A DNA stretch of 64,000 nt from positions 3,924,001 to 3,988,000 of the forward strand of contig NZ_QBTZ01000001.1 of assembly GCF_003058055.1 (NCBI RefSeq), read 5' to 3'. Numbering within the stretch: position 1 is the stretch's first letter; each line of letters begins with the position of its first letter. The translations under genes were made by a program, and so were the position numbers. The notes under the pieces are model-generated. The model did not search any database. It saw only the letters and a list, made by a program, of their open reading frames with translations, and was not told the origin of the DNA. This stretch comes from Acidovorax sp. 107 (GTDB lineage Bacteria; Pseudomonadota; Gammaproteobacteria; Burkholderiales; Burkholderiaceae_C). This document shows, one piece after another, positions 21,303 to 44,321 of this stretch.

Positions 21303-21318
21303 CAAAGCACTTGCTTGC
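21303..21318. promoter_or_regulatory. Operator site A of the putative atu-like TetR regulon
   Basis: The core CAAAGCACTTGCTTGC lies 32 bases upstream of the TetR start codon. It is preceded by TTATTTATA and followed by TAAAAAT. Very similar sequences occur at 37316-37331 and 44306-44321. Its position suggests autoregulation. Confidence 0.65.
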
Positions 21319-21349
21319 TAAAAATAAACAGTTTTGCTATCGTGCCTGC

Positions 21350-22099
21350 ATGGATTCACCCGTGCCGCGCCCCAGCGCCATTGCCCCCGCTCCCAAGAAA
21401 CTTCCGGCCCGCCCCCGTAGCAAGGCCGCAGTGCCCGCCAGCGCCAACCCAGTCCCCGCAGAAACCCCATCGGAAGCAGCCGCCACACGTCGCCCCCGCG
21501 GTCGCCCCCGAAAAACTGCCGAAGAACTCGACGACGGCAACCGCCGCCGCAAGCTCATGGACGGCGCGGCTAAGCTGTTCCGCACCCAGGGCTTTGCAGC
21601 CACCAGCACGCGCGACATTGCAGCGGCCGCAGGCATGCACAGCGGCTCGCCCTTCTATCACTTCGAAAGCAAAAATGCGCTGCTCTACGCAGTGATGAGT
21701 GAGGGCATGACCATGGCCACGCAAAGCCAGCAACAGGCGCTGGATGCGTTGTCCGCCAAGGCCGCGCCGCGCGAGCAGTTGCACACACTCATTCGCCACC
21801 ACTTCGAAGTCCTGCTGGGCCCGCGCAGCAGCTTCATCCCGGTGATGCTGTACGAATGGCGCTCACTCACACCTGCGCAGCGCAAGGGCATTGCCCGCAT
21901 CAAGGACAGCTACGAGGCCACCTGGATGCCCGTGTTGGAAGCGCTGGCACAGCAGGGCGCGCTGCAGGCAGAGCCGGGTGTGGCGCGGCTGTTCATCTTC
22001 GGGGCGCTCAACTGGGCGGTGCAGTGGTTCTCTCCCAAAAAGGGCAAGTCGCTCGACGCGCTCACCGACGAGGCACTCGCCTTATTCATCCGTTCATAA
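21350..22099 (+). CDS. TetR regulator of the atu/liu-like operon
   Basis: A 249-residue TetR-family protein. The first 60 residues are Pro/Ala/Arg-rich with an AT-hook-like RRPRGRPRK segment. The HTH follows: TSTRDIAAAAGMHSGSPFYH with FESKNALLYAV. The ligand domain is at about 120-249. The ATG at 21350 is used because the upstream TTG at 21311 would overlap the operator. It heads an operon of seven further catabolic genes ending at 30840. By analogy with AtuR or LiuQ it probably represses until an acyl-CoA intermediate binds. The extra basic N-terminus is uncommon for TetR proteins and may add DNA contacts. Confidence 0.88.
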   Translation: MDSPVPRPSAIAPAPKKLPARPRSKAAVPASANPVPAETPSEAAATRRPRGRPRKTAEELDDGNRRRKLMDGAAKLFRTQGFAATSTRDIAAAAGMHSGSPFYHFESKNALLYAVMSEGMTMATQSQQQALDALSAKAAPREQLHTLIRHHFEVLLGPRSSFIPVMLYEWRSLTPAQRKGIARIKDSYEATWMPVLEALAQQGALQAEPGVARLFIFGALNWAVQWFSPKKGKSLDALTDEALALFIRS

Positions 22100-22123
22100 C
22101 CACCCCATCAAGGCAGAGTCACC

Positions 22124-23053
22124 ATGGCCCCCACAGCGCGTAACGCCTACCAGTCTGTGTTTGCTCCGGGCCTGTTCCAGGGGCAGGTGGTGGTGGTCAC
22201 CGGTGGCGGCTCCGGCATTGGCCGGTGCACGGCGCACGAGTTGGCGCACCTGGGCGCGCATGTGGTGCTGGTGGGGCGCAAGCCTGAAAAACTGCTGGCC
22301 GTGGCCGAAGAGATCACCGCCGATGGCGGCCGCGTGTCGTGCCAGGTGTGCGACATCCGATCTGAAGAAGGCGTGGTCGCGCTGGTGCAGCAGATCCTTG
22401 CTACGCAGGGCCGCATCGATGCGCTGGTCAACAACGCAGGAGGGCAGTTCATGGCACCGCTCGAATCCATCAGCGCCAAGGGCTGGGAGGCCGTGTTGCA
22501 CACCAACCTCACGGGCGGCTTTCTGATGGCGCGTGAGTGCTACCGGCAGTGGATGGCGCAGCAGGGCGGCTCCATCGTCAACATCGTGGCCGATATGTGG
22601 GGCTCCATGCCGGGCATGGGGCACAGCGGCGCGGCGCGCGCTGGCATGGTCAGCTTCACCGAAACCGCCGCGCTCGAATGGGCCCACAGCGGCGTGCGCG
22701 TGAATGCGGTTGCGCCGGGCTACATCGCGTCCAGCGGTATGGACAATTACCCGCCCGAGGCGGGCGACATGTTGCGCGCCATGCCGCGCACGGTGCCGCT
22801 CGGCCGCTTTGGCAACGAAGCCGAGGTGTCGGCGGCCATTGCCTTTTTGCTCAGCCCCGCAGCCAGCTTCATCAGCGGCACCACGCTGCGGGTGGACGGC
22901 GCCCGACCCCAGGTGCGCATGGGCTGGCCGCAGCGCCCGCCCCGTGCCACCGCCGCAGCACACCCGGCCGTGCGGCCGTTTGACGGCTTTCACCGTGCGC
23001 AGGTGCCGCGGGTGTTTGCACCTTCCCATCCCCCCAAGCCCGAGGCCGCATGA
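22124..23053 (+). CDS. SDR-family oxidoreductase, enoyl-CoA-reductase-like (AtuB-like)
   Basis: A 309-residue short-chain dehydrogenase/reductase. The cofactor loop VTGGGSGIG is at residues 25-33 and LVNNAGG near 101-107. The usual catalytic Tyr-x-x-x-Lys is replaced: the aligned segment reads GHSGAARAGM, with His167 in place of Tyr and no Lys four residues on. This HSGAARAG form is the one I recall from peroxisomal trans-2-enoyl-CoA reductases and related dienoyl-CoA reductases, so the substrate is more likely an enoyl-CoA than an alcohol. Genes called citronellol catabolism dehydrogenase (AtuB) occupy this place in atu clusters. About 40 Pro/Ala-rich residues extend the C-terminus. Confidence 0.82.
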   Translation: MAPTARNAYQSVFAPGLFQGQVVVVTGGGSGIGRCTAHELAHLGAHVVLVGRKPEKLLAVAEEITADGGRVSCQVCDIRSEEGVVALVQQILATQGRIDALVNNAGGQFMAPLESISAKGWEAVLHTNLTGGFLMARECYRQWMAQQGGSIVNIVADMWGSMPGMGHSGAARAGMVSFTETAALEWAHSGVRVNAVAPGYIASSGMDNYPPEAGDMLRAMPRTVPLGRFGNEAEVSAAIAFLLSPAASFISGTTLRVDGARPQVRMGWPQRPPRATAAAHPAVRPFDGFHRAQVPRVFAPSHPPKPEAA

Positions 23054-24663
23054 CTGCCGTCTTCACCTCCCGATTCAACCCAGGCAGCGCCGAGGCCACG
23101 CAGCGCCGCGCAGCGCTGCAGGCCCGCCTTCATGCTCTGCGCGCGCTGGAAGAGCGTGCCGCCGCCGCCTCGGCCCGGTCGCTCCCCCAGTTTGAAAAGC
23201 GCGGCCAGCTGCTGCCGCGCCAGCGCGTGGCGCTGCTGCTGGATGCCGGTGCGCCCTGGTTGCCGCTGTGCACGCTGGCGGGATACCTGCAGGACGTGAA
23301 AGACCCCGAGAAGTCCGTGCCCGGTGGCGGGATGGTTGCGGGCATTGGTTTTGTCAGCGGTGTGCGTTGCATGGTGGTGGCCAGCGACTCGGGCATCGAG
23401 GCCGGTGCCATCCAGCCCATGGGCCTGGAGAAGATCCTGCGGGTGCAGGAGATCGCGCTGCAAAACCGCTTGCCGTTCATCCATCTGGTGGAGAGTGCGG
23501 GCGCTAACCTCATGCGCTACCGGGTGGAGGGCTTCGTGCACGGCGGCACACTGTTCCGCAACCTCGCGCGGCTGTCGGCGGCGGGCATCCCGGTCATCAC
23601 CGTGCAGCACGGCTCTGGCACTGCAGGCGGCGCTTACATGCCTGGTTTGTCGGATGTGGTGATCATGGTGCAGGGCCGCTCGCGCGCCTTTCTGGCCGGG
23701 CCGCCGCTGCTCAAGGCCGCCACGGGTGAGATTGCGACGGAAGAAGAACTGGGTGGCGCCGAGATGCACACCGCCATCTCCGGCCTGGGCGAATACCTGG
23801 CGCAGGACGACCGCGAGGCGATTGGTCTGGCGCGCGATGTGGTGGCGCATCTGGGGTGGGGCGTAGCGCCGCGACCCAGCGCACCCAGCCCCACCTTGCC
23901 CGCAGACGACCTGCTGTCCCTGATGTCCGCCGACCTGCGCCAACCCGTGGACATGCGCGAGGTCATCGCGCGGCTGGTGGATGGATCGGATCTGCTGGAG
24001 TTCAAGGCCCGCTACGGTGCCGCCACCCTCTGCGCGCAAGGGCGCATCCAGGGCCATGCCGTCGGCTTCATCAGCAACAACGGCCCCATCGACGTGGCGG
24101 GCGCGAACAAGGCCACGCACTTCATCCAGTGGATGTGCCAGCTGGGCCACCCCATCATCTATCTGCAGAACACCACGGGCTACATGGTGGGCAAGGACAG
24201 CGAGCAGGGCGGCATGATCAAGCACGGCAGCAAGATGATCCAGGCGGTGACCAACGCCACCGTGCCGCAGATCACCATCCAGTGCGGCGCCAGTTTTGGC
24301 GCGGGCAACTATGGCATGTGCGGGCGGGGCTATGCGCCGCGCTTTCTGTTCAGCTGGCCGGGCGCCAAGACGGCCGTAATGGGCGGCGAGCAGGCAGCGC
24401 GCACCATGCAGATCGTGACCGAGGCAGCGCTGGCGCGCAAAGGCATCACCCCCGACCCGGCCGAGTCGCAAGCCCAGTTTGACAAGATCGTCGCCATGTT
24501 CGAGACCCAGGCCGATGCGCTCGTAACCAGCGGTCTGCTGCTGGACGACGGCGTGATCGACCCGCGCGACACGCGCGCCGTGTTGGCGTTTTGCCTTGAC
24601 ACCGTGGCCGAAGGCGCAGCGCGCACGCTCCGGCCCATGCAATTCGGGGTGGCGCGCATGTAG
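23050..24663 (+). CDS. Acyl-CoA carboxylase carboxyltransferase subunit, AtuC/LiuB type
   Basis: A 537-residue biotin-dependent carboxyltransferase (beta) subunit. The acyl-CoA binding half has LVESAGANLMRY and GSGTAGGAYMPGLSD; the biotin half has GANKATHFIQWM, NTTGYMVGKDSEQGG and GASFGAGNYGMCGRGY. Length and motifs fit methylcrotonyl-CoA or geranyl-CoA carboxylase. Where methylcrotonyl-CoA carboxylases have Phe in an EHFGRIF segment, this protein has Gly165 (VHGGTLF). As I recall, the Phe-to-Gly difference opens the pocket for the longer geranyl-CoA. Its start overlaps the SDR stop by four bases. The biotin-carrying subunit is encoded 2 kb downstream. Confidence 0.9.
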   Translation: MTAVFTSRFNPGSAEATQRRAALQARLHALRALEERAAAASARSLPQFEKRGQLLPRQRVALLLDAGAPWLPLCTLAGYLQDVKDPEKSVPGGGMVAGIGFVSGVRCMVVASDSGIEAGAIQPMGLEKILRVQEIALQNRLPFIHLVESAGANLMRYRVEGFVHGGTLFRNLARLSAAGIPVITVQHGSGTAGGAYMPGLSDVVIMVQGRSRAFLAGPPLLKAATGEIATEEELGGAEMHTAISGLGEYLAQDDREAIGLARDVVAHLGWGVAPRPSAPSPTLPADDLLSLMSADLRQPVDMREVIARLVDGSDLLEFKARYGAATLCAQGRIQGHAVGFISNNGPIDVAGANKATHFIQWMCQLGHPIIYLQNTTGYMVGKDSEQGGMIKHGSKMIQAVTNATVPQITIQCGASFGAGNYGMCGRGYAPRFLFSWPGAKTAVMGGEQAARTMQIVTEAALARKGITPDPAESQAQFDKIVAMFETQADALVTSGLLLDDGVIDPRDTRAVLAFCLDTVAEGAARTLRPMQFGVARM

Positions 24664-24718
24664 CTAGCGCATTACCCCGGCCCTCTCGCTCACAAAAACC
24701 ATCACGGAGACAAGCACC

Positions 24719-25897
24719 ATGCAGTTCACGCACGAGCACCGCGAGATCCAGAAGACCCTCAAGCGTTTTATCGACGAAGAGATCAACCCCCACGTGGATG
24801 AGTGGGAGGCGGCCGAGATCTTCCCCGCGCACGAGGTCTTCAAGAAGATGGGCAACCTGGGCCTTCTGGGCCTGTGCAAGCCCGAAGAGTATGGCGGGCA
24901 GGGGCTGGACTACTCGTACAGCCTGGCCATGGCTGAGACGCTGGGCCACATCCACTGTGGCGGCGTGCCTATGGCGATTGGCGTGCAGACCGACATGTGC
25001 ACGCCTGCGCTGGCGCGCTACGGCAGCGAAGAACTCAAACGCAACTTTCTCGCCCCTGCGATTACGGGCGACATGGTGGGCTGCATCGGCGTGAGCGAAC
25101 CGGCGGCGGGCAGCGACGTGTCAGGCATCAAAAGCGTGGCGCGCAAGGACGGCGACGACTACGTGATCACCGGCCAGAAGATGTGGATCACCAACAGCCT
25201 GCAGGCCGACTGGATGTGCATGCTGGTGAACACGGGTGAAGGCCCCGTGCACAAGAACAAAAGCCTGGTGATGGTGCCCATGCGCGATGGCCCGGGCGGC
25301 AAGCTCACCAAGGGCATCGAGGTGGCGCAGAAGATTCGCAAGATCGGCATGCACAGCAGCGACACCGGGTTGATTTACTTCGACGAAGTGCGGGTGCCAC
25401 AAAGCTACCGCATCGGTGCCGAAGGCCAGGGCTTCATCTACCAGATGCAGCAGTTCCAGGAAGAGCGCCTGTGGTGCGCCGCCAGCACGCTCGAATCGCT
25501 GAATCACTGCATCCAGTGGACCATCGACTATGCGCAGGAACGCAAGCTGTTTGGCAGCACGCTGGCCGACCAGCAGTGGGTGCAGTTCAAGCTGGCCGAG
25601 CTCAAGACCGAGGTCGAGGCCCTGCGCGCACTCACCTACCGCGCCTGTGACCTGTACGTGAACGGGCAGGACGTGCTGGAGCTGGCCAGCATGGCCAAGC
25701 TCAAGGCCGGCCGCCTGAACCGCGAGGTGCCCGACACCTGTCTGCAGTTCTGGGGCGGCATGGGTTTCACGCTGGAGAACAAGGTCTCCCGCATGTACCG
25801 CGACGGGCGGCTGGCGTCGATTGGTGGCGGGGCCGACGAAGTGATGCTGGGCATCCTCGCCAAGCTCATGGGCATTGCCAAGCGACCCGTCCACTGA
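24719..25897 (+). CDS. Acyl-CoA dehydrogenase, citronellyl-CoA dehydrogenase (AtuD)-like
   Basis: A 392-residue flavoenzyme of the acyl-CoA dehydrogenase family. It begins MQFTHEHREIQKTLKRFIDE, has GVSEPAAGSDVSGIKSVA and KMWITNSLQADW in the FAD/substrate region, and ends with FWGGMGFTLENKVSRMYRD and IGGGADEVML. It lies between the carboxyltransferase and hydratase genes, the position of atuD in Pseudomonas atu operons. There the enzyme oxidises citronellyl-CoA to geranyl-CoA, the substrate of the carboxylase. An isovaleryl-CoA dehydrogenase role (liu pathway) is the main alternative. A GGAGACAAGCACC ribosome binding site precedes the ATG. Confidence 0.88.
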   Translation: MQFTHEHREIQKTLKRFIDEEINPHVDEWEAAEIFPAHEVFKKMGNLGLLGLCKPEEYGGQGLDYSYSLAMAETLGHIHCGGVPMAIGVQTDMCTPALARYGSEELKRNFLAPAITGDMVGCIGVSEPAAGSDVSGIKSVARKDGDDYVITGQKMWITNSLQADWMCMLVNTGEGPVHKNKSLVMVPMRDGPGGKLTKGIEVAQKIRKIGMHSSDTGLIYFDEVRVPQSYRIGAEGQGFIYQMQQFQEERLWCAASTLESLNHCIQWTIDYAQERKLFGSTLADQQWVQFKLAELKTEVEALRALTYRACDLYVNGQDVLELASMAKLKAGRLNREVPDTCLQFWGGMGFTLENKVSRMYRDGRLASIGGGADEVMLGILAKLMGIAKRPVH

Positions 25898-25898
25898 C

Positions 25899-26708
25899 AT
25901 GGCTGATTCGCTGCTGATCGACCGCGCGCCGCTGGCCAGCGGCTGTGTGGAAACCTGGACGCTCAACGACCCGGCCAGCCGCAATGCGCTGTCCGAGGCG
26001 ATGGTTGACGGTTTGATGGCCACGTGTGAGCGAGCTGCGGCCGATACCGAGCTGCGCGGTGTGGTGTTGCGCGGTGCCGGTGGGCACTTCTGCGCGGGTG
26101 GCAGCCTGGGCGGTTTTGCCAAGACCATCGGCCAGCCCCTGGCTGCGGGCGAGGCTGACCCGCTAGTACCGCTGAACCGCCGCTTTGGCGCGCTGCTGCA
26201 GGCCCTGTGCGCGCTGCCGCAGTGGCTCATCGTGGCGGTGGAGGGCGCCGCGATGGGCGGCGGCTTCGGCCTGGTGTGCTGCGCCGATCAGGTGCTGGCC
26301 CACGCCAACGCGCAGTTCGCCACGCCCGAGGTCACGCTGGGCATCGTGCCCGCGCAGATTGCACCATTTGTCGTGAGGCGCCTCGGCCCTGCGGCGGCGC
26401 GGCGGTGTTTGCTGACGGGCGAGCGTTGGGATGCTGCGATTGCTCAACGTGCGGGGCTGGTGGATGAGGTGGTGGCTGGCGACATGGAGGCTGCTGTGCA
26501 AGCCGCCATCGCGCGCCATGCCGCCGCAGCGCCGCGGGCCGTGGCCGCCACCAAACGTTTGTTGCTGGCCCAGACTGATACGTCGTTGTCCGCGCTGCTG
26601 GATGAGGCGGCGATGGCTTTTGCGCAAGCGCTGCGCGGGTCCGAGGCTCCGCAAGGGCTGGCGGCGTTTGCTGCGCGCAAGGCACCGCCGTGGAGTGCGA
26701 AGCCATGA
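25899..26708 (+). CDS. Enoyl-CoA hydratase, AtuE/LiuC-like
   Basis: A 269-residue crotonase. The first oxyanion-hole segment is GGHFCAGGSLGGF and the second is EGAAMGGGFGLVCCADQVLA. The order carboxyltransferase, dehydrogenase, hydratase, biotin carboxylase is that of atuC-D-E-F, so this would be the isohexenylglutaconyl-CoA hydratase counterpart. I start at the ATG at 25899, one base after the dehydrogenase stop. Its own stop overlaps the ATG of the 38-codon leader ORF (ATGA at 26705-26708). Confidence 0.86.
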   Translation: MADSLLIDRAPLASGCVETWTLNDPASRNALSEAMVDGLMATCERAAADTELRGVVLRGAGGHFCAGGSLGGFAKTIGQPLAAGEADPLVPLNRRFGALLQALCALPQWLIVAVEGAAMGGGFGLVCCADQVLAHANAQFATPEVTLGIVPAQIAPFVVRRLGPAAARRCLLTGERWDAAIAQRAGLVDEVVAGDMEAAVQAAIARHAAAAPRAVAATKRLLLAQTDTSLSALLDEAAMAFAQALRGSEAPQGLAAFAARKAPPWSAKP

Positions 26709-26821
26709 AAAAGATACTGATCGCCAATCGGGCTGTGCATGCCGAAGGCATGGCGAAGCAAATTGCCCGCGCACGCGCAGCGTGCAGGCGGGCGATGGAG
26801 CCGCGAGGGCACAGCCTATGA
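26705..26821 (+). CDS. 38-codon ORF copying the start of the biotin carboxylase
   Basis: This ORF encodes MKKILIANRAVHAEGMAKQI and 18 further residues, then stops in TGA. Its first nine codons give the same peptide (MKKILIANR) as the biotin carboxylase that follows, with two silent differences within codons 4-5 (ATACTG against ATCCTC). It is linked by four-base ATGA overlaps to the hydratase upstream and the biotin carboxylase downstream. It is either a remnant of a partial duplication or a short coupling ORF. No family is known to me. Confidence 0.5.
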   Translation: MKKILIANRAVHAEGMAKQIARARAACRRAMEPRGHSL

Positions 26822-28752
26822 AAAAGATCCTCATCGCCAATCGCGGCGAAATCGCCCGCCGGGTGATTCACACCGCCCACCGCATGGGCATTGAAACGGT
26901 AGCCGTCTACTCCGACCCCGACGCCAACGCCTTGCATGTGCGCGAAGCCACCCAGGCCGTGGCCTTGGGCGGCGCCGCCAGCGCCGACACCTACCTGCGC
27001 ACCGACAAGCTGCTCGCCGCCGCCCGCGCCACCGGGGCCGATGCCGTGCACCCCGGCTATGGCTTCCTCAGCGAGAACGCCGACTTTGCTCAGGCTGTGT
27101 TGGATGCGGGCCTGACCTGGATCGGCCCGCCGCCCGCCGCCATCCGCTCGCTGGGCAGCAAGGCAGGTGCCAAGGCGCTGGCCCAGGCACACGGCGTGCC
27201 CTGCCTGCCCGGCTATGCGGGCGACGACCAGAGCGACGAGCGCTTTGCCGCCGAGGCCGCGCGCATTGGCACACCCCTCATGGTCAAGGCTGTGGCCGGT
27301 GGGGGAGGGCGCGGCATGCGGCTGGTCACCGACCTGGCGCAGTTGCCCGCTGCGCTGGCGAGTGCCAGGTCCGAGGCGCTGGCAGGCTTTGGCTGTGGCG
27401 ACCTGCTCATCGAACGCGCGCTGCTGCAGCCGCGCCATGTGGAGGTGCAAGTCTTTGCCGACGCCCACGGAGCGTGCATCCACCTGGGCGAGCGCGATTG
27501 CTCGGTGCAGCGCCGCCACCAGAAAATCATTGAAGAGGCACCCAGCCCAGCGGTGGATGCCGCATTGCGCGAACGCATGGGCGCCTGCGCCGTGGCGCTA
27601 GCCCAGGCGGCTGGCTACGTAGGCGCGGGCACGGTGGAGTTTCTGCTGGATGGTGAAGACTTCTACCTGATGGAGATGAACACCCGACTGCAGGTGGAGC
27701 ACCCGGTGACCGAAGCGCTCACGGGGCTGGACCTGGTGGAGTGGCAAATCCGCATGGCGCGCGGCGAGCCGCTGCCGCTCACGCAAGACCAGGTGCATCT
27801 GCAAGGCCACGCTATCGAGGTGCGCCTGTGCGCCGAAGACGCGCATTTCCGCCCCCACACCGGCCGCGTGCTGCAGTTCAGCGCGCCACCAGCCGCCGCG
27901 TTTGAACGGGCTGCGCCCGGCGCGCTGCGCTTTGACCATGCGCTGGAGGAGGGGGCAGAGGTCACGCCTCACTACGACGCCATGCTGGGCAAGCTCATCG
28001 TGCACGCCCCCACGCGGGCCGAGGCCATCGACGCCCTGGTGCGTGCGCTGCACAGCACCCGTGTGCTGGGCCTCCCCACCAACCGCGCGTTTCTGGCGGT
28101 CTGCTTGCAGCACCCCGTGTTTGCCAGCGGCCGGGCGCTGGTGCCGTTCCTGGCGGAGCATGCCCAGGAGTTGCAGCAATTGCTATCAAATAATGAGCTG
28201 TCAGCGCATATTAATTCAGCGCTATCGGCTATTTTTGCTTCCAATCTCGCGTCGGACCTGCCTTGTGCCCTGGCCAGGCCCCTGCGGCTGCGGCACCAGG
28301 GCGAGGTGCACTCCATCGCCGTGCGCGAGTTGGGCGGTGGGCGGCTGCTGGTGGAGCAGGCCGGGGCAGAACCTGTGACTTTGCAACTGCCCCAGCGCGG
28401 CGTGCACTGCGTGGCGGTGGGCCCCCGGCGCTGGCATTGGCAAACCGGCGGCGTGGATGGCTGGGTGGAGGACGCATCGTTGGAGCCCGCCACACAAGCT
28501 GGTGCCACTGGCGGCGCATCCGAGCTGCGCGCCCCCTTCAACGGCAAGGTGGTCGCATTGCCCGTGGCCGCAGGCCAGGCGCTGGCGGCGGGCGACACGG
28601 TGGTGGTCATCGAATCCATGAAGCTCGAACACAGCCTGTCCAGCCCCGCAGCCGCCACGGTGGCTGAGCTGCTGGTGGCCCCCGGCCAGCAGGTATCGCC
28701 CGGCCAGGTGCTGGCTCGCTTTGCACCCGCCACGCAAGGAGTGCCCGCATGA
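26818..28752 (+). CDS. Biotin carboxylase/carrier subunit of acyl-CoA carboxylase (AtuF/LiuD type)
   Basis: A 644-residue alpha subunit. The biotin carboxylase part (1-450) has MKKILIANRGEIARRVI, the ATP-grasp glycine loop GGGGRGMRLV, ERDCSVQRRHQKIIEEAPS and MEMNTRLQVEHPVTE. The C-terminal biotinyl domain has Lys602 in VIESMKLEH, a variant of the usual EAMKM that still holds the Met-Lys target. It carboxylates its own biotin with ATP and bicarbonate and passes CO2 to the partner carboxyltransferase. Residues about 454-475, in the linker after the carboxylase domain, are encoded by an in-frame copy of the dispersed palindromic repeat. The start at 26818 gives the canonical N-terminus. Confidence 0.93.
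   Translation: MKKILIANRGEIARRVIHTAHRMGIETVAVYSDPDANALHVREATQAVALGGAASADTYLRTDKLLAAARATGADAVHPGYGFLSENADFAQAVLDAGLTWIGPPPAAIRSLGSKAGAKALAQAHGVPCLPGYAGDDQSDERFAAEAARIGTPLMVKAVAGGGGRGMRLVTDLAQLPAALASARSEALAGFGCGDLLIERALLQPRHVEVQVFADAHGACIHLGERDCSVQRRHQKIIEEAPSPAVDAALRERMGACAVALAQAAGYVGAGTVEFLLDGEDFYLMEMNTRLQVEHPVTEALTGLDLVEWQIRMARGEPLPLTQDQVHLQGHAIEVRLCAEDAHFRPHTGRVLQFSAPPAAAFERAAPGALRFDHALEEGAEVTPHYDAMLGKLIVHAPTRAEAIDALVRALHSTRVLGLPTNRAFLAVCLQHPVFASGRALVPFLAEHAQELQQLLSNNELSAHINSALSAIFASNLASDLPCALARPLRLRHQGEVHSIAVRELGGGRLLVEQAGAEPVTLQLPQRGVHCVAVGPRRWHWQTGGVDGWVEDASLEPATQAGATGGASELRAPFNGKVVALPVAAGQALAAGDTVVVIESMKLEHSLSSPAAATVAELLVAPGQQVSPGQVLARFAPATQGVPA
28179..28241. repeat. Dispersed palindromic repeat inside the biotin carboxylase gene
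   Basis: The segment runs from TTGCTATCAAATAATGAGCT through CAGCGC and TCAGCGCTATCGGCTATTTT. It has the GCTAT ends and paired AGCGC/GCGCT arms of the family and is strikingly AT-rich inside a GC-rich gene. It adds about 21 codons in frame with no stop. Confidence 0.75.
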
Positions 28753-32046: not shown

Positions 32047-32186
32047 GCTTTTTGTGTCCTTTCCAATGTTTTAACGCGTTGTGAGACGGATGTAAGAAAT
32101 CCTAAAACTTCCCTGAGGCCGTCAGAAAACGGATGCTTGACAAGGTTGAGATCGATTGTGTCTAGGTAGTCGGATTCAAAGTGCAT
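32031..32186 (-). CDS. Possible small protein coupled to the HEPN-like gene
   Basis: A possible 51-residue protein starting MHFESDYLDTIDLNLVKHPF; a further upstream ATG at 32219 would make 62 residues. It shares the AT-richer composition of the next gene and its 3' end overlaps that gene's start by 16 bases, as in many small-protein/large-protein pairs. Both candidate starts lie inside the 3' end of the FadJ-type gene. No family is recognised, and it may be a chance ORF. Confidence 0.35.
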   Translation of the reverse strand: MHFESDYLDTIDLNLVKHPFSDGLREVLGFLTSVSQRVKTLERTQKAWVKD

Positions 32187-34365: not shown

Positions 34366-34388
34366 GTTGTTGTCTCCTTCCCAGTCAA

Positions 34389-35594
<1,206 letters not shown>

Positions 35595-35740: not shown

Positions 35741-36043
35741 ATGGAACGAAATACATCCCCTGCATTGCAGCGCATCGCGCGCAGCGCCATCGAATACGAC
35801 GACACGCGCGACGGGTTTGCGCTGGAGCACCATGTGGTTCTCGCCGCATCCAGCGCGCTGGCGGTGGCGGCCTTCATGGCGCCCAGCCGCAGCTCGGCGG
35901 CCATACGCGGCATTGGCGCAGGCTTGCTGCTGATGCGCGCGCTGAGCGGCAGCCAGGGTGTGCGCTCCTGGCTGAATGTGACCGATCGCCGCCCCGGTGC
36001 ACCCCTCAGTCCTGAGGAAGCGCGCGCCGCCTGGTATCTGTAA
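35741..36043 (+). CDS. Small hypothetical protein with hydrophobic segment
   Basis: A 100-residue protein of unknown function starting MERNTSPALQRIARSAIEYD. Residues about 30-70 are hydrophobic (VVLAASSALAVAAFMA, then a GIGAGLLLMRAL stretch), consistent with one or two membrane segments. The C-terminus is LSPEEARAAWYL. It is alone on the plus strand between two minus-strand genes. No ribosome binding site is strong, and an opposite-strand ORF covers the same region; composition favours the plus frame. Confidence 0.5.
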   Translation: MERNTSPALQRIARSAIEYDDTRDGFALEHHVVLAASSALAVAAFMAPSRSSAAIRGIGAGLLLMRALSGSQGVRSWLNVTDRRPGAPLSPEEARAAWYL

Positions 36044-37291: not shown

Positions 37292-37315
37292 GGTGGGGCA
37301 ACCAGGTTATTTATG

Positions 37316-37331
37316 CAAAGTTACTGCTTGG
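37316..37331. promoter_or_regulatory. Operator site C of the putative atu-like TetR regulon
   Basis: The core CAAAGTTACTGCTTGG is preceded by TTATTTATG and followed by TTAAATT, matching sites at 21303 and 44306 at most positions. It lies 25 bases upstream of the acyl-CoA dehydrogenase start, well placed for repression of that gene. Confidence 0.6.
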
Positions 37332-37376
37332 TTAAATTCTGCCACCGACTGGGCCCGGATGCACCCCCTGAAACGC

Positions 37377-37398
37377 AAAAGCCGCCCGAAGGCGGCTT
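37377..37398 (-). terminator. Rho-independent terminator of the binding-protein gene
   Basis: Read on the minus strand, an AAGCCGCC/GGCGGCTT stem with a TTCG tetraloop runs into TTTT. It starts about 21 bases after the stop of the substrate-binding-protein gene. Confidence 0.85.
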
Positions 37399-37418: not shown

Positions 37419-38585
37419 TCATGGCTTGACGTAGTCGGAGACCACCTTCCACTTGCCATCGGTGATCTGCGACAGGCGCGAGAGGTCGCTGCCCAGGCGC
37501 TTTTGCGGGCCAAAGGTGCCCTCGGCGCTGCCGAACATGTCCGGCGGGATCACCATGGTGTCCATGGCCTTGATGAAGCTGTCGGTGCTCAGGTTGGGGC
37601 CTGCCTTCTGGGCCGCCTTGATGAAGGCATCGACCGCGTTGTAGCCGTAGACCGAGAAGACGGTGGGGTCTTCATTGAACTTGGTCTTGTACTTGTTGGC
37701 CCAGAAGCGGATGGGCTGGCTGGCCTCGTCCAGGTACGGGTGTTGCACGGTCATGGTGGCGTAGAGGCCGTCCATCGGCTTGCCACCCAGCTTGTGGATG
37801 AGGTCGGTGTAGGCGGCGCTGGAGCCGAGGAAGGTGGGGTTAAAGCCCGTCTTGCGCGCCTCGCCAATGGTGCCGATGGTCTCGCGAATGATGGTGCCCA
37901 GGATCACGAAGTCGCATTCGGACGATTTCATCTTGGCGACTTGTGACGAGAAGTCGGTGGCGCCGCGCTTGTATGAAGTTTTCTCGGTGAACTCCATGCC
38001 CATGGACTTGAGCGCTGCCTCGCCGCCGCGCATCACTTCCAGACCAAACTCATCGTCCTGGTAAATGGTGCAGACCTTCTTGGCGCCTTTTTCCTTGATG
38101 AGCTTGGGCGCGGCCAGGCGGATCTGGTCGTAGTACGTGGCGGCAAACGAATACTTGAGCTTGTGGAAGGGTTCGTACATTTCCCGTGCAGCGGTGACGG
38201 GGAAGAAGTTGATCACGTTCTTGCTGAACTGCACGGGCATGGCGGCCAGGTTCTGCGCCGTGCCGATGTGCGCAATCATCATGAAGATCTTGTCCTGGTT
38301 CACGAGCTTTTGCGCAGCCAGCACGGCTTTCTTGGGGTCGTAGCCCGAGTCTTCCACCTTCAGGTCCAGCTTGCGGCCATTCACGCCGCCTTGCTCGTTG
38401 GCCTCGTCCACGCGCAGCATCATGCCCAGCCGCACCTGCTTGCCAAACCCCGCCAGCGGGCCCGACAGATCCTGGATGGAGCCCAGCGTGATGGTGTCCT
38501 TGCTCACGCCCTGGCTGGGCTGCGCCTGGGCGGAGGCACCGGCCATGGCCACGAGGGCCAGCGCGGCGATGTGATGAAACTTCAT
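37419..38585 (-). CDS. Substrate-binding protein of a Liv-type (HAAT) ABC importer
   Basis: A 388-residue periplasmic protein with a signal peptide of about 22 residues ending ASAQAQ. The mature protein starts SQGVSKDTITLGSIQDLSGP, typical of the Leu/Ile/Val-binding-protein family, and keeps the type I fold features (for example MIAHIGTAQNLAAMPVQF). I start at the ATG at 38585 to place the signal peptide correctly. The membrane and ATPase genes lie upstream in the same direction, separated by an acyl-CoA synthetase. The neighbours suggest a hydrophobic carboxylic acid ligand rather than an amino acid. Confidence 0.92.
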   Translation of the reverse strand: MKFHHIAALALVAMAGASAQAQPSQGVSKDTITLGSIQDLSGPLAGFGKQVRLGMMLRVDEANEQGGVNGRKLDLKVEDSGYDPKKAVLAAQKLVNQDKIFMMIAHIGTAQNLAAMPVQFSKNVINFFPVTAAREMYEPFHKLKYSFAATYYDQIRLAAPKLIKEKGAKKVCTIYQDDEFGLEVMRGGEAALKSMGMEFTEKTSYKRGATDFSSQVAKMKSSECDFVILGTIIRETIGTIGEARKTGFNPTFLGSSAAYTDLIHKLGGKPMDGLYATMTVQHPYLDEASQPIRFWANKYKTKFNEDPTVFSVYGYNAVDAFIKAAQKAGPNLSTDSFIKAMDTMVIPPDMFGSAEGTFGPQKRLGSDLSRLSQITDGKWKVVSDYVKP

Positions 38586-38616
38586 GGCACGTCTCCTTCG
38601 GTTGGATCGAAACAAA

Positions 38617-38709: not shown

Positions 38710-40566
38710 CTACCGGTACATGGCCTCGATCTGGGGCGCGTACTTCTGCTGCACCAGCTTGCGCTTGAGCTTCATGGTGGGCGTCAGCTCTTCATCCTCG
38801 GCCGTGAGTTGGGTGTCGAGCAGGAAGAACTTCTTGATCTGCTCCACCCGGGCGAACTTGGTGTTGACGCGGTCGATCTCGCCCTGGATCAGCTCCTGCA
38901 CCTCGCGCGTGCGGGTCAGGCTGGCGTAGTTGGAGAAGGGCACATCGTTGTCCTGCGCGTACTTTTCCACGTTCTCCTGGTCGATCATGATGATCACCGT
39001 GAGGTAGGGCAGCTTGTCGCCAATGACCACCGCATCGGTGATGTAGGGGCTGAACTTGAGTTCGTTTTCCAGTTCGCTGGGCGTGATGTTCTTGCCGCCG
39101 GCCGTGATGATGATGTCCTTCATGCGGTCGGTGATGCGCAGGTAGCCGTCCGCATCGATCAGGCCCACATCGCCCGTGTGCAGCCAGCCGTCGGGGTCGA
39201 TGGTTTCGGCCGTCTTCTCGGGCTGGTTGAGGTAACCCTTGAACACATTGGGACCGCGCACCAGGATCTCGCCGGTGGCGGGGTCGATGCGCACCTCGTT
39301 GTAGCTGGCTGCTGGGCCGATGGAGCCAGGTTTGATGCGGGTGGCGGGCACACCCGTGGAGGCGCCACAGGTCTCAGTCATGCCCCACACCTCCAGCATG
39401 GGCACGCCCAGGGCCAGGTACCACTTCACCAGCTCGGGCGAGATGGGGGCTGCCCCCGTGACGAGGAAGCGGGCGCGGTGGATGCCGATGAGCTTGCGCA
39501 CATTGTTCAGCGCCAGAAAGCGCGCGAGCATGAACTGCGCCTTCAGCAGGCCACCCACCGGCTGGCCCGCCAGCACGCGGTCTGCAATGCGCGTGCCCAC
39601 GCCAATCGACCAGGCATAAGCCGCCTGCTGCAGCCGCGTGGATTCCTTCAGGGCAATCATCACACCCGAATAGAACTTCTCCCACACGCGCGGCACGGCG
39701 GTGAACACGGTGGGCGCGATCTCGCGCACGTTTTCGGGCACGGTGTCGGGGTTCTCCACAAAGTTCAGGCGCGCACCGGTGTAGAGCGAGAAGTATTCGC
39801 CGCCCATGCGCTCGGCGATGTGGCACAGCGGCAGAAAGCACATGGTCTCGTCCGCCTCGCTGCGCGAGATGAGCGTGTTGTAGCCACGCACGGTGTAGGT
39901 CAGTGCGCCGTGTGTGTGCATGGCGCCCTTGGGCTTGCCGGTGGTGCCCGAGGTGTAAACGAGGATGGCCAAGTCTTCGGGGCGGCAGGCCTTGACGCGC
40001 TGCATTAGCGCGTCGGGGTGTTGTGTATTCCACGCGCGGCCCAGCTCGCGCAGGGCCGCAAGGCTCAGCACATCGGGGTCGTTCAGGCTGCGCAGGCCTT
40101 CCATGTCGAACACCACCACCTTGCGCAGCAGGGGCAGGTTGTTGCGCACTTCCAGCGCCTTGTCGAGCTGCTCGTCGTCTTCCACAAACAGCACGGTGGC
40201 GCGCGAGTCTTCACACAGGTAGTGCACCTGCGCCGCCGCATCGGTGGGGTAGATGCCGTTGGCCACGCCGCCGCAGCTCAGCACGGCCAAGTCGGCGAGC
40301 ACCCATTCGATGTTGGTGTTGGACAGGATGGATGCGCATTCGCCCGGCGCAAACCCCAGCGACATCAGGCCGCCTGCAATCTCGCGCACGGCCTCGGCGG
40401 TCTGGTCCCAGGTCCAGCTCTTCCAGATGCCCAGCTCCTTCTGGCGCATCCACACGCGCGGGCCGCGCTCGGCCACGGCGTTCCAGAACATGGCGGCGAT
40501 GGTGTCGCCTGCCAGCACGTCGGTGCCGGCAGGTTGGATGTGATCGAGGTCCCAGAGATTGCTCAT
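38710..40566 (-). CDS. Long-chain acyl-CoA synthetase (AMP-forming)
   Basis: A 618-residue adenylate-forming ligase that couples a carboxylic acid to CoA with ATP. The P-loop-like motif is ILVYTSGTTGKPKGAMHTH. The A5-A8 region includes VWGMTETCGAS and GWLHTGDVGLIDADGYLRI with DRMKDIIITAGGKNI. It belongs to the long FAA1/FadD15-like subgroup. The ATG at 40566 has GTGAGGACAAC upstream. It lies seven bases after the last ATPase gene of the importer, in the same operon, which strongly suggests activation of the imported acid. Confidence 0.94.
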   Translation of the reverse strand: MSNLWDLDHIQPAGTDVLAGDTIAAMFWNAVAERGPRVWMRQKELGIWKSWTWDQTAEAVREIAGGLMSLGFAPGECASILSNTNIEWVLADLAVLSCGGVANGIYPTDAAAQVHYLCEDSRATVLFVEDDEQLDKALEVRNNLPLLRKVVVFDMEGLRSLNDPDVLSLAALRELGRAWNTQHPDALMQRVKACRPEDLAILVYTSGTTGKPKGAMHTHGALTYTVRGYNTLISRSEADETMCFLPLCHIAERMGGEYFSLYTGARLNFVENPDTVPENVREIAPTVFTAVPRVWEKFYSGVMIALKESTRLQQAAYAWSIGVGTRIADRVLAGQPVGGLLKAQFMLARFLALNNVRKLIGIHRARFLVTGAAPISPELVKWYLALGVPMLEVWGMTETCGASTGVPATRIKPGSIGPAASYNEVRIDPATGEILVRGPNVFKGYLNQPEKTAETIDPDGWLHTGDVGLIDADGYLRITDRMKDIIITAGGKNITPSELENELKFSPYITDAVVIGDKLPYLTVIIMIDQENVEKYAQDNDVPFSNYASLTRTREVQELIQGEIDRVNTKFARVEQIKKFFLLDTQLTAEDEELTPTMKLKRKLVQQKYAPQIEAMYR

Positions 40567-40573
40567 GTTGTCC

Positions 40574-41395
40574 TCACCGCCATGTCTTCTTCTTTTTCCA
40601 CCGCCGCTCACCCCGCACGCCCTCGTCCTTCATGCCGAGGTAGAACTCCTTGATGTCGTCCTTCTCGCGCAGGCGCTCGCAGCTGTCTTCCATCACGATG
40701 CGGCCGTTCTCCAGCACGTAGCCGTAGTCCGATGCGTTGAGCGCCATATTGGCGTTCTGTTCCACCAGCAGGATCGTGGTGCCGCGCTCACGGTTGATGC
40801 GCACCACGATCTCGAAGATTTCCTTGGTGAGCTTCGGGCTCAGGCCCAGGCTGGGCTCGTCCAGCAGGATCAGATCAGGGCTGGCCATGAGCGCGCGCGA
40901 GATCGCCAGCATCTGCTGCTGGCCGCCCGAGAGCAGGCCCGCGTCCTGTGCGGCGCGCTCCTTCAGGATGGGGAAGTAGCCGTACACGGTTTCAATGTCG
41001 CGCGCCACTGCGTCCTTGTCGGCGCGTGTGTAGGCGCCCATGAGCAGGTTGTCGCGCACCGAGAGCAGTGCAAATACTTCGCGCCCCTCGGGCACATGCA
41101 TCAGTCCTCGGCGCACGATGGCGGCTGGGTCGTTGGCGGTGATGTCGGCGCCCTGGAACTCGATGGAGCCCTTGCGCGGGTCGATGATGCCGCTGATCGT
41201 CTTCAGGATGGTGGTCTTGCCTGCGCCGTTGCTGCCCAGCACGGCGGCGATTTCGCCGCGCCGCACCTGCAGGCTCACGCCCCGGATGGCCTTGATGGGG
41301 CCGTAGGCACTTTCCACGTTCTGCAGGCGCAGCAGCGGCTGGTCGGCGGCACTGGCCACCGGGCTGGTGGCGGGGGCGGACAGCACGGCGCTCAT
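40574..41395 (-). CDS. livF: LivF-type ABC transporter ATPase
   Basis: A 273-residue ABC ATPase. Walker A is GSNGAGKTT, the signature is LLSGGQQQMLAISRAL, and Walker B is LILLDEPSLGL. The family length and MHVPEGREVF segment match LivF proteins, one of the two ATPases of Liv/HAAT importers. About 20 extra N-terminal residues precede the domain, and a Lys/Trp-rich tail ends the protein. It overlaps the LivG-type gene by four bases. The substrate is probably an organic acid, given the adjoining acyl-CoA synthetase. Confidence 0.95.
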   Translation of the reverse strand: MSAVLSAPATSPVASAADQPLLRLQNVESAYGPIKAIRGVSLQVRRGEIAAVLGSNGAGKTTILKTISGIIDPRKGSIEFQGADITANDPAAIVRRGLMHVPEGREVFALLSVRDNLLMGAYTRADKDAVARDIETVYGYFPILKERAAQDAGLLSGGQQQMLAISRALMASPDLILLDEPSLGLSPKLTKEIFEIVVRINRERGTTILLVEQNANMALNASDYGYVLENGRIVMEDSCERLREKDDIKEFYLGMKDEGVRGERRWKKKKTWR

Positions 41396-42240
41396 GTGCG
41401 GGCTCCCATGCTGGAACCCGCAGGTCGGCGCAGGTTGCTCACGTCGTCGATGGTGCCCAGGTACGCCTCCACCACTCCGGGATGCGTCTGTACCTCGCGC
41501 GGCGTGCCCGTTGCCACCACCTCGCCCTGGTTCATGGCCAGCACGCGGTCGGACACCTTGGAGACCAGCGACATGTCGTGTTCCACCATCAGCACCGTGA
41601 TGCTCAGCTCATGCTGAATGTCCTGGATCCAGAAGGCCATGTCATCGGTCTCCTCCACATTCAGGCCCGACGAGGGCTCGTCGAGCAGCAGCAACTTGGG
41701 CTCGGTGCACAGGGCGCGGGCCAGCTCCACCACCTTGCGCACGCCGTAGGGCAGGCCGGCCACCATGGTGTCGCGGTAGTGCTGCAAGTCGAGAAAGTCG
41801 ATGATTTGCTCGGCCTTTTCGCGCGCCAGGATCTCGCCTTCACGCACCTTGCGCGTGAAGAACATCTCGGCCCACAGGCTGCTGTGCTGCCGCGTATGGC
41901 GGCCGATCAGCAGGTTGTGCAGCACGCTCGCGTGCTCGAAGAGTTCGATGTTCTGGAAGGTGCGCGCAATGCCCAGGCCCGCCACCTTGTGTGGCGGCTG
42001 GTCGGTGAGTGGCAGCATGGCGCCGCCGGGGCCCGCATAGGCAATGGTGCCGGTGGTGGGCGTGTAGATGCGGCTGATGAGGTTGAACACCGTGGTCTTG
42101 CCCGCGCCATTGGGCCCGATGAGGGTGAACACCTCGCCGCGCCGCACGTCAAAGCTCACGTTGTTAACCGCCAGCACGCCGCCAAAGCGCACGCTGAGGT
42201 TCTGGGCCGAAAGCAGGACTTCGTTGGTCATCGCTGTCAT
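41392..42240 (-). CDS. livG: LivG-type ABC transporter ATPase
   Basis: A 282-residue ABC ATPase with Walker A GPNGAGKTTVFN, a LivG-typical GIARTFQNIELF segment, and Walker B LLLLDEPSSGL. The C-terminal VLAMNQGEVVATGTPREVQ is standard for LivG. The signature motif is degenerate (YGVRKVVELARAL rather than LSGGQ), which is common in some LivG relatives. It overlaps the permease gene upstream and the LivF gene downstream by four bases each. Confidence 0.95.
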   Translation of the reverse strand: MTAMTNEVLLSAQNLSVRFGGVLAVNNVSFDVRRGEVFTLIGPNGAGKTTVFNLISRIYTPTTGTIAYAGPGGAMLPLTDQPPHKVAGLGIARTFQNIELFEHASVLHNLLIGRHTRQHSSLWAEMFFTRKVREGEILAREKAEQIIDFLDLQHYRDTMVAGLPYGVRKVVELARALCTEPKLLLLDEPSSGLNVEETDDMAFWIQDIQHELSITVLMVEHDMSLVSKVSDRVLAMNQGEVVATGTPREVQTHPGVVEAYLGTIDDVSNLRRPAGSSMGART

Positions 42241-43313
42241 TTCAACCTGTCGGATTTTTGAAAGGACTTCTGCCGCTTGAACAGGCCCTTGCGGTAGAAC
42301 GGGAACATCTGCAGCCAGGTGCGCACCTTGAGCCAGCGGCCGTACAAGCCCATGGGCTCGAACAGCACAAACGCAATCAGAACGACGCCGTACACCACCG
42401 CCTGCAGGCCAGGCGACTGGCCGATGGAGTCTGGCAACCAGTCCTTGCCCAGGGAGATGAGCTGCGGCATGGCGATCAGGAAGATCGCGCCCAGGAAGGC
42501 GCCGTGCACTGAGCCCAGCCCGCCGATCACGATCATCAGCAGCAGGTCGATGGACTGCAGGATGTTGAACTGATCGGGTGAGATGAACTGCAGCTTGTGC
42601 GCGTACAACGCCCCGCCGATGCCTGCGAGCGCGGCTGATATGGAGAACGACAGCGTTTTGTAGCGCGCGAGGTGGATACCCATGCTCTGTGCCGAAATCT
42701 CTGAATCACGGATAGCGACAAACGCGCGGCCCGTGGGCGAGCGCAGCAGGTTCAGGATGGCGAGGGTGCTGACCACTGCAATCACCAGGCACAAGAAGTA
42801 GAACGACTCGGTGGATTCGAACGAATAGCCCCCAATCTGCGGCGGCACCAGGTGCTTGCCGGAGTTGCCGCCCGTGACCGACTCCCAGCGCGCAAACACC
42901 TCTTCCACAATGAAGCCGAACGAAAGCGTGGCCATGCCCAGGTAGATGCCCTTCACGCGCAGCGCGGGCAGGCCCACCACCACGCCCACAGCGGCAGACA
43001 GCCCCGCTGCGCAGGCCAGCGACAGCGCAAACGGCCAGCCCATGCCCGTGAGCACGGCCTGTGTATACGCCCCCACGCCGAGGAATGCAGCGTGCCCCAG
43101 CGAGAACAAGCCGGTGAAGCCCGCCAGCAGCATCAGTCCCAGGCCCACGATGGCGTAGATGAGCACAAAGGTGAGCTGAGCCAGCCAGTATTCGGGCGCC
43201 ACCCAGGGTGCGGCGACGAGGGCCAGGCACAGCAGGCTGTACCAGAACACATGTCCGCCATGCTTGGCGAGGCGGATGTCTTGCGCGTACGAGGTCTTGA
43301 AGATGAAACGCAT
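42237..43313 (-). CDS. livM: LivM-type ABC transporter permease
   Basis: A 358-residue membrane protein with eight to ten hydrophobic helices. LMLLAGFTGLFSLGHAAFLG is the typical LivM segment, and RDSEISAQSMGIHLARYK is the cytoplasmic loop that contacts the ATPase. It pairs with the LivH-type permease nine bases upstream. The C-terminus carries a Lys/Arg-rich tail after the last helix. Confidence 0.94.
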   Translation of the reverse strand: MRFIFKTSYAQDIRLAKHGGHVFWYSLLCLALVAAPWVAPEYWLAQLTFVLIYAIVGLGLMLLAGFTGLFSLGHAAFLGVGAYTQAVLTGMGWPFALSLACAAGLSAAVGVVVGLPALRVKGIYLGMATLSFGFIVEEVFARWESVTGGNSGKHLVPPQIGGYSFESTESFYFLCLVIAVVSTLAILNLLRSPTGRAFVAIRDSEISAQSMGIHLARYKTLSFSISAALAGIGGALYAHKLQFISPDQFNILQSIDLLLMIVIGGLGSVHGAFLGAIFLIAMPQLISLGKDWLPDSIGQSPGLQAVVYGVVLIAFVLFEPMGLYGRWLKVRTWLQMFPFYRKGLFKRQKSFQKSDRLK

Positions 43314-43322
43314 GTTTGTCCT

Positions 43323-44198
43323 TCAGACCTTCTTCCGTAGCTTTTCGCCGAATAGCCCGTTGGGTTTGACCATCAGCATGATCAGCACCACGATGTACGC
43401 GGCCGTGTCCTTGAACCCATCGGGCAGGTAGAAGCCCGAGAGCGATTCGACGATGCCGATCACCAGTCCGCCGACGATGGCGCCGGGCAGGCTGCCAAAG
43501 CCGCCCACCACGGCGGCCGGGAAGGCCTTGAGGCCGATCAGCCCCATGTTGGCGTGCACGAAGGTGATGGGCGCCAGCAGCAGGCCCGCCACCGCCGCCA
43601 CCGCAGCGGCCAGGCCCCAGGCCAGGCCGTTGAGCCGCTGCACCGGAATGCCCATGTAATAGGCGGCCAGCTGGTTCTGCGACGACGCCTGCATGGCAAT
43701 GCCCAGCTTGCTGTAGCGGAACATGGCGAACAGCAGCACGCACAGCACGCCCGTGGCGCCAATCACCACCAGCTGCTCGGCGTTGAGCACCAGCGCACCG
43801 AGGCGAAACGACAGGTCCTTGTAGGGCACGGGCAGCGTGTGCGTCTCGGTGCCGATGTTGGGGATCATGGTCACCAGCCCGCGCAGCACGTAGCCGATGC
43901 CGATGGTGAGCATGACGATGGAAAACGCGGGCTGGCCCAGGATGGGGCGGATCACGGCGCGCTCCAGTACCACGCCGAAGCAGCCCATGGCCAGGATGCT
44001 GGCGAGCACCGCCACCCAGAAGGGAAAGCCCAGCACCGTCATCAGTGCCAGCCCGCAGAAGGCGCCGAGCATCATGAGTTCGCCCTGGGCAAAGCTCACG
44101 GTCTCCGTGGCCTTGTAGATGAGCACGAACCCCAGCGCGATCAGGCCGTAGATGCACCCCTGGGAGACACCGCTGATCAACAGTTGCACAAATTGCAC
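43323..44198 (-). CDS. livH: LivH-type ABC transporter permease, GTG start
   Basis: A 291-residue membrane protein of the LivH family, with SGVSQGCIYGLIALGFVLIY at the N-terminus and GLKAFPAAVVGGFGSLPGAI toward the C-terminus. No suitable ATG lies near the conserved start; a GTG at 44198 follows GGAGAGCCA at the right distance, so I use it. It is the first gene of the operon livH-livM-livG-livF-acyl-CoA synthetase. A TetR-type operator lies 108 bases upstream, in the divergent region shared with the hydratase at 44478. Confidence 0.92.
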   Translation of the reverse strand: MQFVQLLISGVSQGCIYGLIALGFVLIYKATETVSFAQGELMMLGAFCGLALMTVLGFPFWVAVLASILAMGCFGVVLERAVIRPILGQPAFSIVMLTIGIGYVLRGLVTMIPNIGTETHTLPVPYKDLSFRLGALVLNAEQLVVIGATGVLCVLLFAMFRYSKLGIAMQASSQNQLAAYYMGIPVQRLNGLAWGLAAAVAAVAGLLLAPITFVHANMGLIGLKAFPAAVVGGFGSLPGAIVGGLVIGIVESLSGFYLPDGFKDTAAYIVVLIMLMVKPNGLFGEKLRKKV

Positions 44199-44305
44199 AC
44201 TGGCTCTCCAGATTGAGACCTGAGCCGGTGGGCGCAAAGCGTGTGGTGACTGGCAGCACGCACTTTGTGAAACCCTGTGGGCACAAGACCTGCAGAATAT
44301 TTTTA

Positions 44306-44321
44306 CAAAGCGATTGCTTTG
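44306..44321. promoter_or_regulatory. Operator site B of the putative atu-like TetR regulon
   Basis: CAAAGCGATTGCTTTG is an almost perfect inverted repeat (arms CAAAGC/GCTTTG). On the minus strand its flank reads TTATTTATG, as at sites A and C. It lies between the divergent LivH-type permease and the enoyl-CoA hydratase at 44478 and could control either or both. Confidence 0.65.

Follow-up and report, generated by a model that had tools for sequence, protein, structure and literature searches.

AtuR of Pseudomonas is a repressor of the TetR type that serves a geranyl-CoA carboxylase operon and binds two 13-bp repeats, AGCAAGCGCTTGG and CCAAGCGCTTGCT, lying 40 bp apart (Forster-Fromme and Jendrossek 2010, as cited in PMC9973270 and PMC4847356; repeats from PMC9973270). 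By our reading of the published repeats, their half-sites abut. A second system, RdmA of Pseudomonas nitroreducens, is an AtuR-like TetR repressor of an atuA-H-like cluster and of separate dig genes; its operator repeats are identical to those of AtuR and its proposed inducer is the fatty-acid signal DSF (PMC9973270). In Comamonadaceae, the TetR-family regulator FadP has been predicted for fatty-acid degradation, with 194 sites in 25 genomes (~8 per genome), and LiuQ likewise for betaproteobacteria, where its role would be in branched-chain amino acids (PMC5343134); in R. solanacearum, FadP is assigned 12 operons and 27 genes (PMC12543098). We analysed a 64,000-nucleotide stretch of Acidovorax sp. 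107 (contig NZ_QBTZ01000001.1, positions 3,924,001 to 3,988,000; hereafter the window), in which three copies of a 34-bp sequence lie before the gene of a TetR-family regulator (hereafter TetR), an acyl-CoA dehydrogenase and a Liv-type importer operon. We consider it likely that this TetR is an autoregulating, AtuR-type repressor of three operators and four units, induced by an acyl-CoA and governing a branched-acid pathway.

The original prediction placed the three sites at 21303, 37316 and 44306, and CAAAG begins exactly there in each case. The downstream genes are also those that it described, namely TetR (21350), an acyl-CoA dehydrogenase (start 37291, minus strand; dehydrogenase 3 below) and LivH (start ~44198, minus strand). 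The six nucleotides that it counted between CAAAG and GCTT are in fact five at all three sites, and the TTATTTAT that it took to be shared is common to the three but lies on the minus strand at site 3, where the plus strand reads ATATTTTTA. The fuller shared unit is a 34-bp pseudo-palindrome with half-sites around MAAGC-N4-GCTTK and A/T-rich arms, reading TTATTTATACAAAGCACTTGCTTGCTAAAAATAA at site 1, TTATTTATGCAAAGTTACTGCTTGGTTAAATTCT at site 2 and ATATTTTTACAAAGCGATTGCTTTGCATAAATAA at site 3. The inner core of this unit, TRCAAAGC-N4-GCTTTGYA, is matched perfectly by site 3, with 2 mismatches by site 1 and with 3 by site 2. In the window, the core with up to 3 mismatches allowed has 4 matches against a shuffle mean of 0.92, the fourth, a 3-mismatch match at 2045, looking like a chance occurrence.

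The locus resembles that of AtuR in its putative TetR repressor, its operon for a carboxylase of the geranyl-CoA type and the MAAGC core of its half-sites. Moreover, site 1 and site 2 each have one arm (AGCAAGC and CCAAGC, respectively) that recurs unchanged in the AtuR operator. However, each promoter region here holds a single 34-bp site with 4 bp at its centre and A/T-rich arms, and two 13-bp repeats upstream of atuA, each made of abutting half-sites as in an operator of the AtuR type, are not found. Unlike in the atu cluster, TetR leads the operon, atuA is missing from it and a Liv-type importer is added. The parallel with RdmA lies in an AtuR-like TetR acting on an atu-like cluster together with other genes, the difference in the importer operon, none being mentioned for RdmA in the available part of PMC9973270. 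With these systems the kind of circuit is already known, the operator spacing and the importer being what seems new.

The original prediction named random occurrence of the motif across the genome as evidence against it; scans of all 5,111,855 bases confine the motif to the three sites. Within the window, TTATTTATRCAAAG-N5-GCTT at up to 3 mismatches gave 5 matches at 3 places, two of which count once per strand, whereas shuffles gave a mean of 0.01. Matches without mismatch occur in the whole genome only at the three sites, and the other three places found, with 2, 3 and 3 mismatches, do not exceed 6.9 bits by the matrix described below (scores -0.4, 6.9 and -2.2); a reversed control had none. 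The symmetric consensus WTTTWTRSMAAGC-N4-GCTTKSYAWAAAW, composed after the genome's own sites had been seen, likewise recovered at up to 3 mismatches the three sites only (control 0). The bare core palindrome was rejected as a genome scan, being unspecific at up to 3 mismatches (89 places versus 19 in the control); it is the A/T arms that carry the specificity. For scoring we used a symmetrised weight matrix trained on 15 sites that precede TetR orthologs, with records titled Acidovorax excluded; since these training sites were originally located with a pattern derived from the window, the matrix is not wholly independent. Left out of training were L050, L053, L054, L056, L058 and L062, which have no site scoring at least 20 on the 30-point scale given below, and L052, which has none in the TetR promoter. 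The matrix gives 61.3 bits to site 1, 57.5 to site 3 and 34.2 to site 2. The next-best window position not overlapping a site reaches -5.1 bits, and the maximum in a simulated background of 80 windows (5.1 Mb), which follows a first-order model of the window rather than the real genome, was 8.2 bits. The three sites are genuine rather than random occurrences.

Conservation was scored on a scale out of 30, with a cut-off of at least 20. Within the genus a site was found at 19/19 loci before TetR, 20/20 before LivH (scores 26-29) and 19/20 before dehydrogenase 3 (21-24). The LivH site has a mean identity to our genome of 0.96 (19 loci) against ~0.2-0.8 in the surrounding gap, and that of dehydrogenase 3 a mean of 0.89 (20 loci) against ~0.6-0.8. 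Across the family, 26 of 30 TetR loci reach the cut-off, and the remaining four (L113, L117, L121, L133) score 26.8-36.3 bits by the matrix. A site is also present at 39/46 named TetR loci, these 46 being what was scored out of 51 once L033 (no upstream DNA), L071 (a fragment) and L072-L074 (distant) had been dropped. Among 200 family genomes, the motif at up to 2 mismatches occurs in 25 of the 46 that are TetR-positive by our own cut (E ~1e-60 or better, from 60 matching genomes) versus 5 of the 154 others (Fisher p ~1e-14). Those five also fall outside the 60 TetR-matching genomes, and their motif matches adjoin none of the queried genes. In other genera, sites were seen in the gap between dehydrogenase 3 and thiolase (L078, L084, L095, L096), in the thiolase/TetR gap (L077), by thiolase (L091, L101) and before LivH (L080, L081, L092).

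The genes behind the sites are also inherited together. Carboxylase beta, LivH and dehydrogenase 3 (identity of at least 84%) occur jointly in 20/24 genus genomes and are jointly absent from the other 4. TetR is found in 19 of the 24, its presence or absence agreeing with that of carboxylase, importer and dehydrogenase in 23/24; in the twentieth genome (G216) the contig breaks off within carboxylase beta. In G200, ~2.4 Mb separate TetR from LivH and dehydrogenase 3; the LivH site is nonetheless kept. In L048 and L052 the importer is within 6 kb of TetR and the LivH gap holds a site, and in L063 and L067 the TetR operon is followed by a relative of the binding protein. The locus has an autoregulatory layout, with an operator-like site in the regulator's own promoter that is common to its targets. 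Because of this position and the co-occurrence of gene and motif, we infer that the TetR at 21350 binds the sites, and a regulatory link from TetR through the sites to the targets is, on sequence grounds, very likely.

The regulator carries PF00440 (50.9 bits) and PF17932 (69.6 bits), and its predicted model is helical, with a mean pLDDT of 77.5 and values below 50 over the N-terminal 49 residues. The folds nearest to this model are PfiT at the top, then AibR with isovaleryl-CoA, PfmR, BkaR, DarR, KstR2 and FadR with stearoyl-CoA. AibR (PDB 5k7h, 5k7z) and FadR of Bacillus subtilis (3whc) were solved with acyl-CoA effectors, although they come from other organisms and share only 26% and 23-24% identity with TetR. 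An acyl-CoA would be the natural effector to expect from the model. A search of plasmids for TetR returned 5 records, all below 60% identity. A Marinobacter plasmid TetR (L220, 37%) and Achromobacter pA82 (L221), where carboxylase and AtuA genes are present, served as background only.

The substrate is suggested by the carboxylase. The best solved relative of its beta subunit is the geranyl-CoA carboxylase (GCC) beta subunit 5ikl (579.5 bits, versus 457.9 for MCC beta 3u9r). GCC beta is marked by a Gly in place of the Phe of MCC, without the 3-residue insertion that precedes the latter (PMC4673880). Gly165 of the subunit, a position fixed by that insertion, aligns by eye with both residues (the numbering differs from PMC4673880), and the protein has one extra residue relative to GCC, versus three in MCC. 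Judged by its sequence the carboxylase is of the geranyl-CoA type, and its pocket is therefore predicted to accept a bulky alpha-beta-unsaturated acyl-CoA with a beta-methyl group, which would suit a beta-methyl-branched, isoprenoid-like substrate.

We envisage that, without substrate, TetR dimers occupy the operators at 21294, 37307 and 44297, in the promoter regions of their own carboxylase operon, of dehydrogenase 3 and of the divergent pair formed by importer/synthetase and hydratase/thioesterase. The acid would enter by the Liv-type ABC importer and be activated to its CoA ester, and this ester or a close product would release the repressor. The enzymes would then dehydrogenate the ester, carboxylate its gamma-methyl branch with the geranyl-CoA-type carboxylase, and hydrate the product. 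In Atu and Liu biochemistry, enzymes of the AtuA/HMG-CoA-lyase type split such a carboxylated, hydrated product. The original prediction saw one regulated pathway running from import to cleavage: the common motif at three promoters and the co-inheritance support a shared regulation, but not a closed route ending in cleavage, the operon's own cleavage enzyme belonging instead to the beta-keto acid cleavage enzyme family (BKACE, PF05853), with four NCBIfam matches all under their cut-offs.

Two AtuA-family genes lie elsewhere in the genome, at C2:149075 and C1:1195448, the best matrix scores around them being -4.6 and -9.5 bits (L196, L198). The first belongs to a paralogous cluster on the 190-kb contig C2 (G000:C2:146619-164700; L196, L197) that comprises carboxylase and beta-oxidation genes, AtuA and two TetR genes, and in which the counterparts of dehydrogenase 3, thiolase, FadB, carboxylase beta and carboxylase alpha are consecutive, beside another TetR. 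By its gene order this cluster provides natural evidence that its enzyme classes act together. An AtuR-like 13-mer, CCAAACGCTTGTT, occurs there with 2 mismatches in the divergent gap between the dehydrogenase 3 counterpart and TetR (L197:6715), but is only suggestive, since comparable matches with 1 or 2 mismatches also occur at other places of these stretches and within the window.

Several observations weigh against a conserved, acyl-CoA-responsive regulon of this kind. Much of the conservation in the genus is shared descent, and two of the four genus genomes that lack all the genes are only 75% and 82% complete. Site 2 is weak, at 34 bits; the single genus locus without a dehydrogenase 3 site is that of G200, whose TetR site is weak too (20/30). 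The motif at up to 2 mismatches is absent from 21/46 TetR-positive family genomes, and in one TetR-positive genome a 39-bit site (L088, G112:C59:5711-5733) adjoins none of the queried genes and may either mark another target or be a fortuitous match in A/T-rich DNA. Seven of the 46 named TetR loci have no site scoring at least 20, L050, L052 and L056 keeping a MAAGC-N4-GCTTGCT core that L053, L054, L058 and L062 do not. No carboxylase beta was found in the stretches fetched around any of the seven, and thus the regulator can live without the carboxylase operon. Of the near folds, the top match PfiT and the c-di-AMP binder DarR are not acyl-CoA regulators, and no lyase for the carboxylated product stands behind the three sites. 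As a separate observation, a different palindrome, CAAGCAAACGATTGCTT, is present upstream of the TetR orthologs in L053, L054, L058 and L062, which have no carboxylase beta nearby; it is possibly an altered operator.

An ampler form of the proposal can be put forward only tentatively, as a possibility that we would not favour. It sees an undescribed regulon of Comamonadaceae, in which an AtuR-like repressor has moved from abutting half-sites to half-sites spaced by 4 bp and commands full uptake and degradation of a bulky acid with a beta-methyl branch, including a Liv importer with its own CoA ligase, insulated by the spacing from the AtuA cluster on C2. No published description of this regulon was recognised by title or abstract, in a search outside which most subscription journals lie. 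The tetR described in Acidovorax avenae is a different, pqi-linked gene (PMC4204640).

It is unlikely that TetR corresponds to FadP or LiuQ in the RegPrecise/Kazakov reconstructions and that its regulon is already described as a fatty-acid or branched-chain regulon of betaproteobacteria, although FadP is the most serious candidate for such an earlier description. Those regulators are predicted in Comamonadaceae and betaproteobacteria, and the targets here are indeed acyl-CoA enzymes; FadP, too, is a TetR-family regulator of such genes in Burkholderiales. The difference, drawn from site and operon counts and from descriptions, is that three sites are found here, against the 12 operons in R. solanacearum and ~8 sites per genome of FadP. 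Moreover, strong TetR matches by our cut were found in 46 of the 200 family genomes, and in a search of close relatives the named matches carry genus names that we take to be those of Comamonadaceae, or are metagenome-assembled genomes with wider labels.

We are similarly doubtful that TetR is AtuR itself and that an ordinary regulon for acyclic terpenes has simply been transferred to Comamonadaceae. The order short-chain dehydrogenase, carboxylase beta, dehydrogenase, hydratase, carboxylase alpha does parallel atuB-F as these genes are named in PMC4847356, and the AtuR arms in sites 1 and 2 point the same way. However, the operon has no atuA, its half-sites stand 4 bp apart rather than abutting, and the AtuA-bearing paralogous cluster on C2 has TetRs of its own. 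The genome's two TetR paralogs (53% and 39% identical) raise the question of whether the sites are operators of another regulator, such as the C2 paralog, that also controls the TetR operon. This we hold to be very improbable, given that the motif tracks TetR promoters across genera and that 57/60 positive family genomes have a single TetR match at the cut-off, so most have no paralog to bind. Least credible is an A/T-rich core promoter as the whole of the shared sequence: a promoter-like TTTACA-18-AATAAT (10/12), oriented to the second enoyl-CoA hydratase (ECH2), is embedded in site 3, but the inner half-sites are conserved, the spacing is fixed and the sequence is unique in 5.1 Mb, and a consensus scan found no such match at site 1 or site 2. 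Promoter-like matches in the region (3, shuffle mean 2.4) are not commoner than in shuffles.

Returning to a TetR-controlled regulon, its probable members are listed in Table 1. The original prediction counted three regulated units; the three sites do stand at promoters, but the gap with site 3 also fronts ECH2 and a thioesterase, giving four candidates. Since site 3 sits in this divergent gap, the pair is the fourth likely unit. Membership of the thioesterase is supported by eight named loci from other genera (L046, L059, L060, L061, L063, L064, L065, L070), in which a relative lies inside the TetR operon or closes it. Thiolase and FadB-like genes at 32176-35594 are separated from dehydrogenase 3 by a 534-bp gap holding a small plus-strand open reading frame (~100 aa, 35741-36043), and a scan of the whole window found no site of their own. 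They are therefore only possible members of the dehydrogenase 3 transcript; as a counterpoint, a site faces thiolase in other genera. Terminator-like matches in the region number 8, against a shuffle mean of 11.6.

Table 1. Predicted operators, genes and other features of the regulon in window coordinates.
Feature	Position	Strand	Basis or remark
Operator 1 (predicted)	21294..21327	+	ends 22 bp ahead of TetR start codon; matrix score 61.3
TetR-family regulator (TetR_N + TetR_C_24), first gene of carboxylase operon	21350..22099	+	profile matches; fold comparison
Short-chain dehydrogenase/reductase (SDR)	22124..23053	+	profile matches
Acyl-CoA carboxylase beta (carboxyltransferase), geranyl-CoA-carboxylase type	23050..24663	+	comparison with solved relatives
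Acyl-CoA dehydrogenase 1 (ACAD1)	24719..25897	+	
Enoyl-CoA hydratase (crotonase)	25899..26708	+	
Carboxylase alpha (biotin carboxylase + BCCP)	26818..28752	+	
Acyl-CoA dehydrogenase 2 (ACAD2)	28749..29921	+	
BKACE	29944..30840	+	PF05853, 275.7 bits
Acyl-CoA dehydrogenase 3 (ACAD3), LCAD-like	36128..37291	-	mitochondrial LCAD 8w0t, 425 bits
Operator 2 (predicted), weakest site	37307..37340	-	ends 15 bp ahead of dehydrogenase 3 start; matrix score 34.2
Terminator-like hairpin between importer operon and operator 2	37379..37398	-	consensus match
Periplasmic binding protein, Liv/HAAT type	37419..38615	-	
AMP-forming acyl-CoA synthetase	38710..40611	-	
LivF-type ATPase	40574..41395	-	
LivG-type ATPase	41392..42240	-	
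LivM-type permease	42237..43313	-	
LivH-type permease	43323..44198	-	start codon assigned by eye
Operator 3 (predicted)	44297..44330	.	inside divergent gap LivH / ECH2; matrix score 57.5
Enoyl-CoA hydratase 2 (ECH2), divergent from LivH	44478..45275	+	adjoins LivH also in L052, L075, L076
Hotdog thioesterase	45282..45866	+	profile matches

Two gaps within the carboxylase operon vary between loci. In the window (26705-26817), the beginning of the biotin-carboxylase gene (ATGAAAAAGAT..ATCGCCAATCG) occurs a second time 113 bp further upstream; the two copies are separated by an 87-bp GC-rich element, which is single-copy in this genome. One such duplicated unit is present in L028 and in L030, two in L044 and none in L026, and L025 has another insert; in further Acidovorax loci the gap between enoyl-CoA hydratase and biotin carboxylase reaches up to 421 bp. 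Likewise, ~1.2 kb separate carboxylase beta from ACAD1 in 16 of the 35 loci measured, the window lacking this insert (55-bp gap). The sole insert checked, L025:13317-14526, holds a gene with weak HEAT/DNA-alkylation-repair-like matches.

In summary, the analysis yields a precise predicted operator and a putative regulon of four units around a carboxylase cluster found repeatedly in Acidovorax and its relatives. Liv-type importers are usually annotated as amino-acid transporters; the one here is tied to the probable catabolism of a branched acid. Moreover, AtuR-like half-sites set in another spacing could explain the lack of cross-talk between paralogous regulators in one cell.

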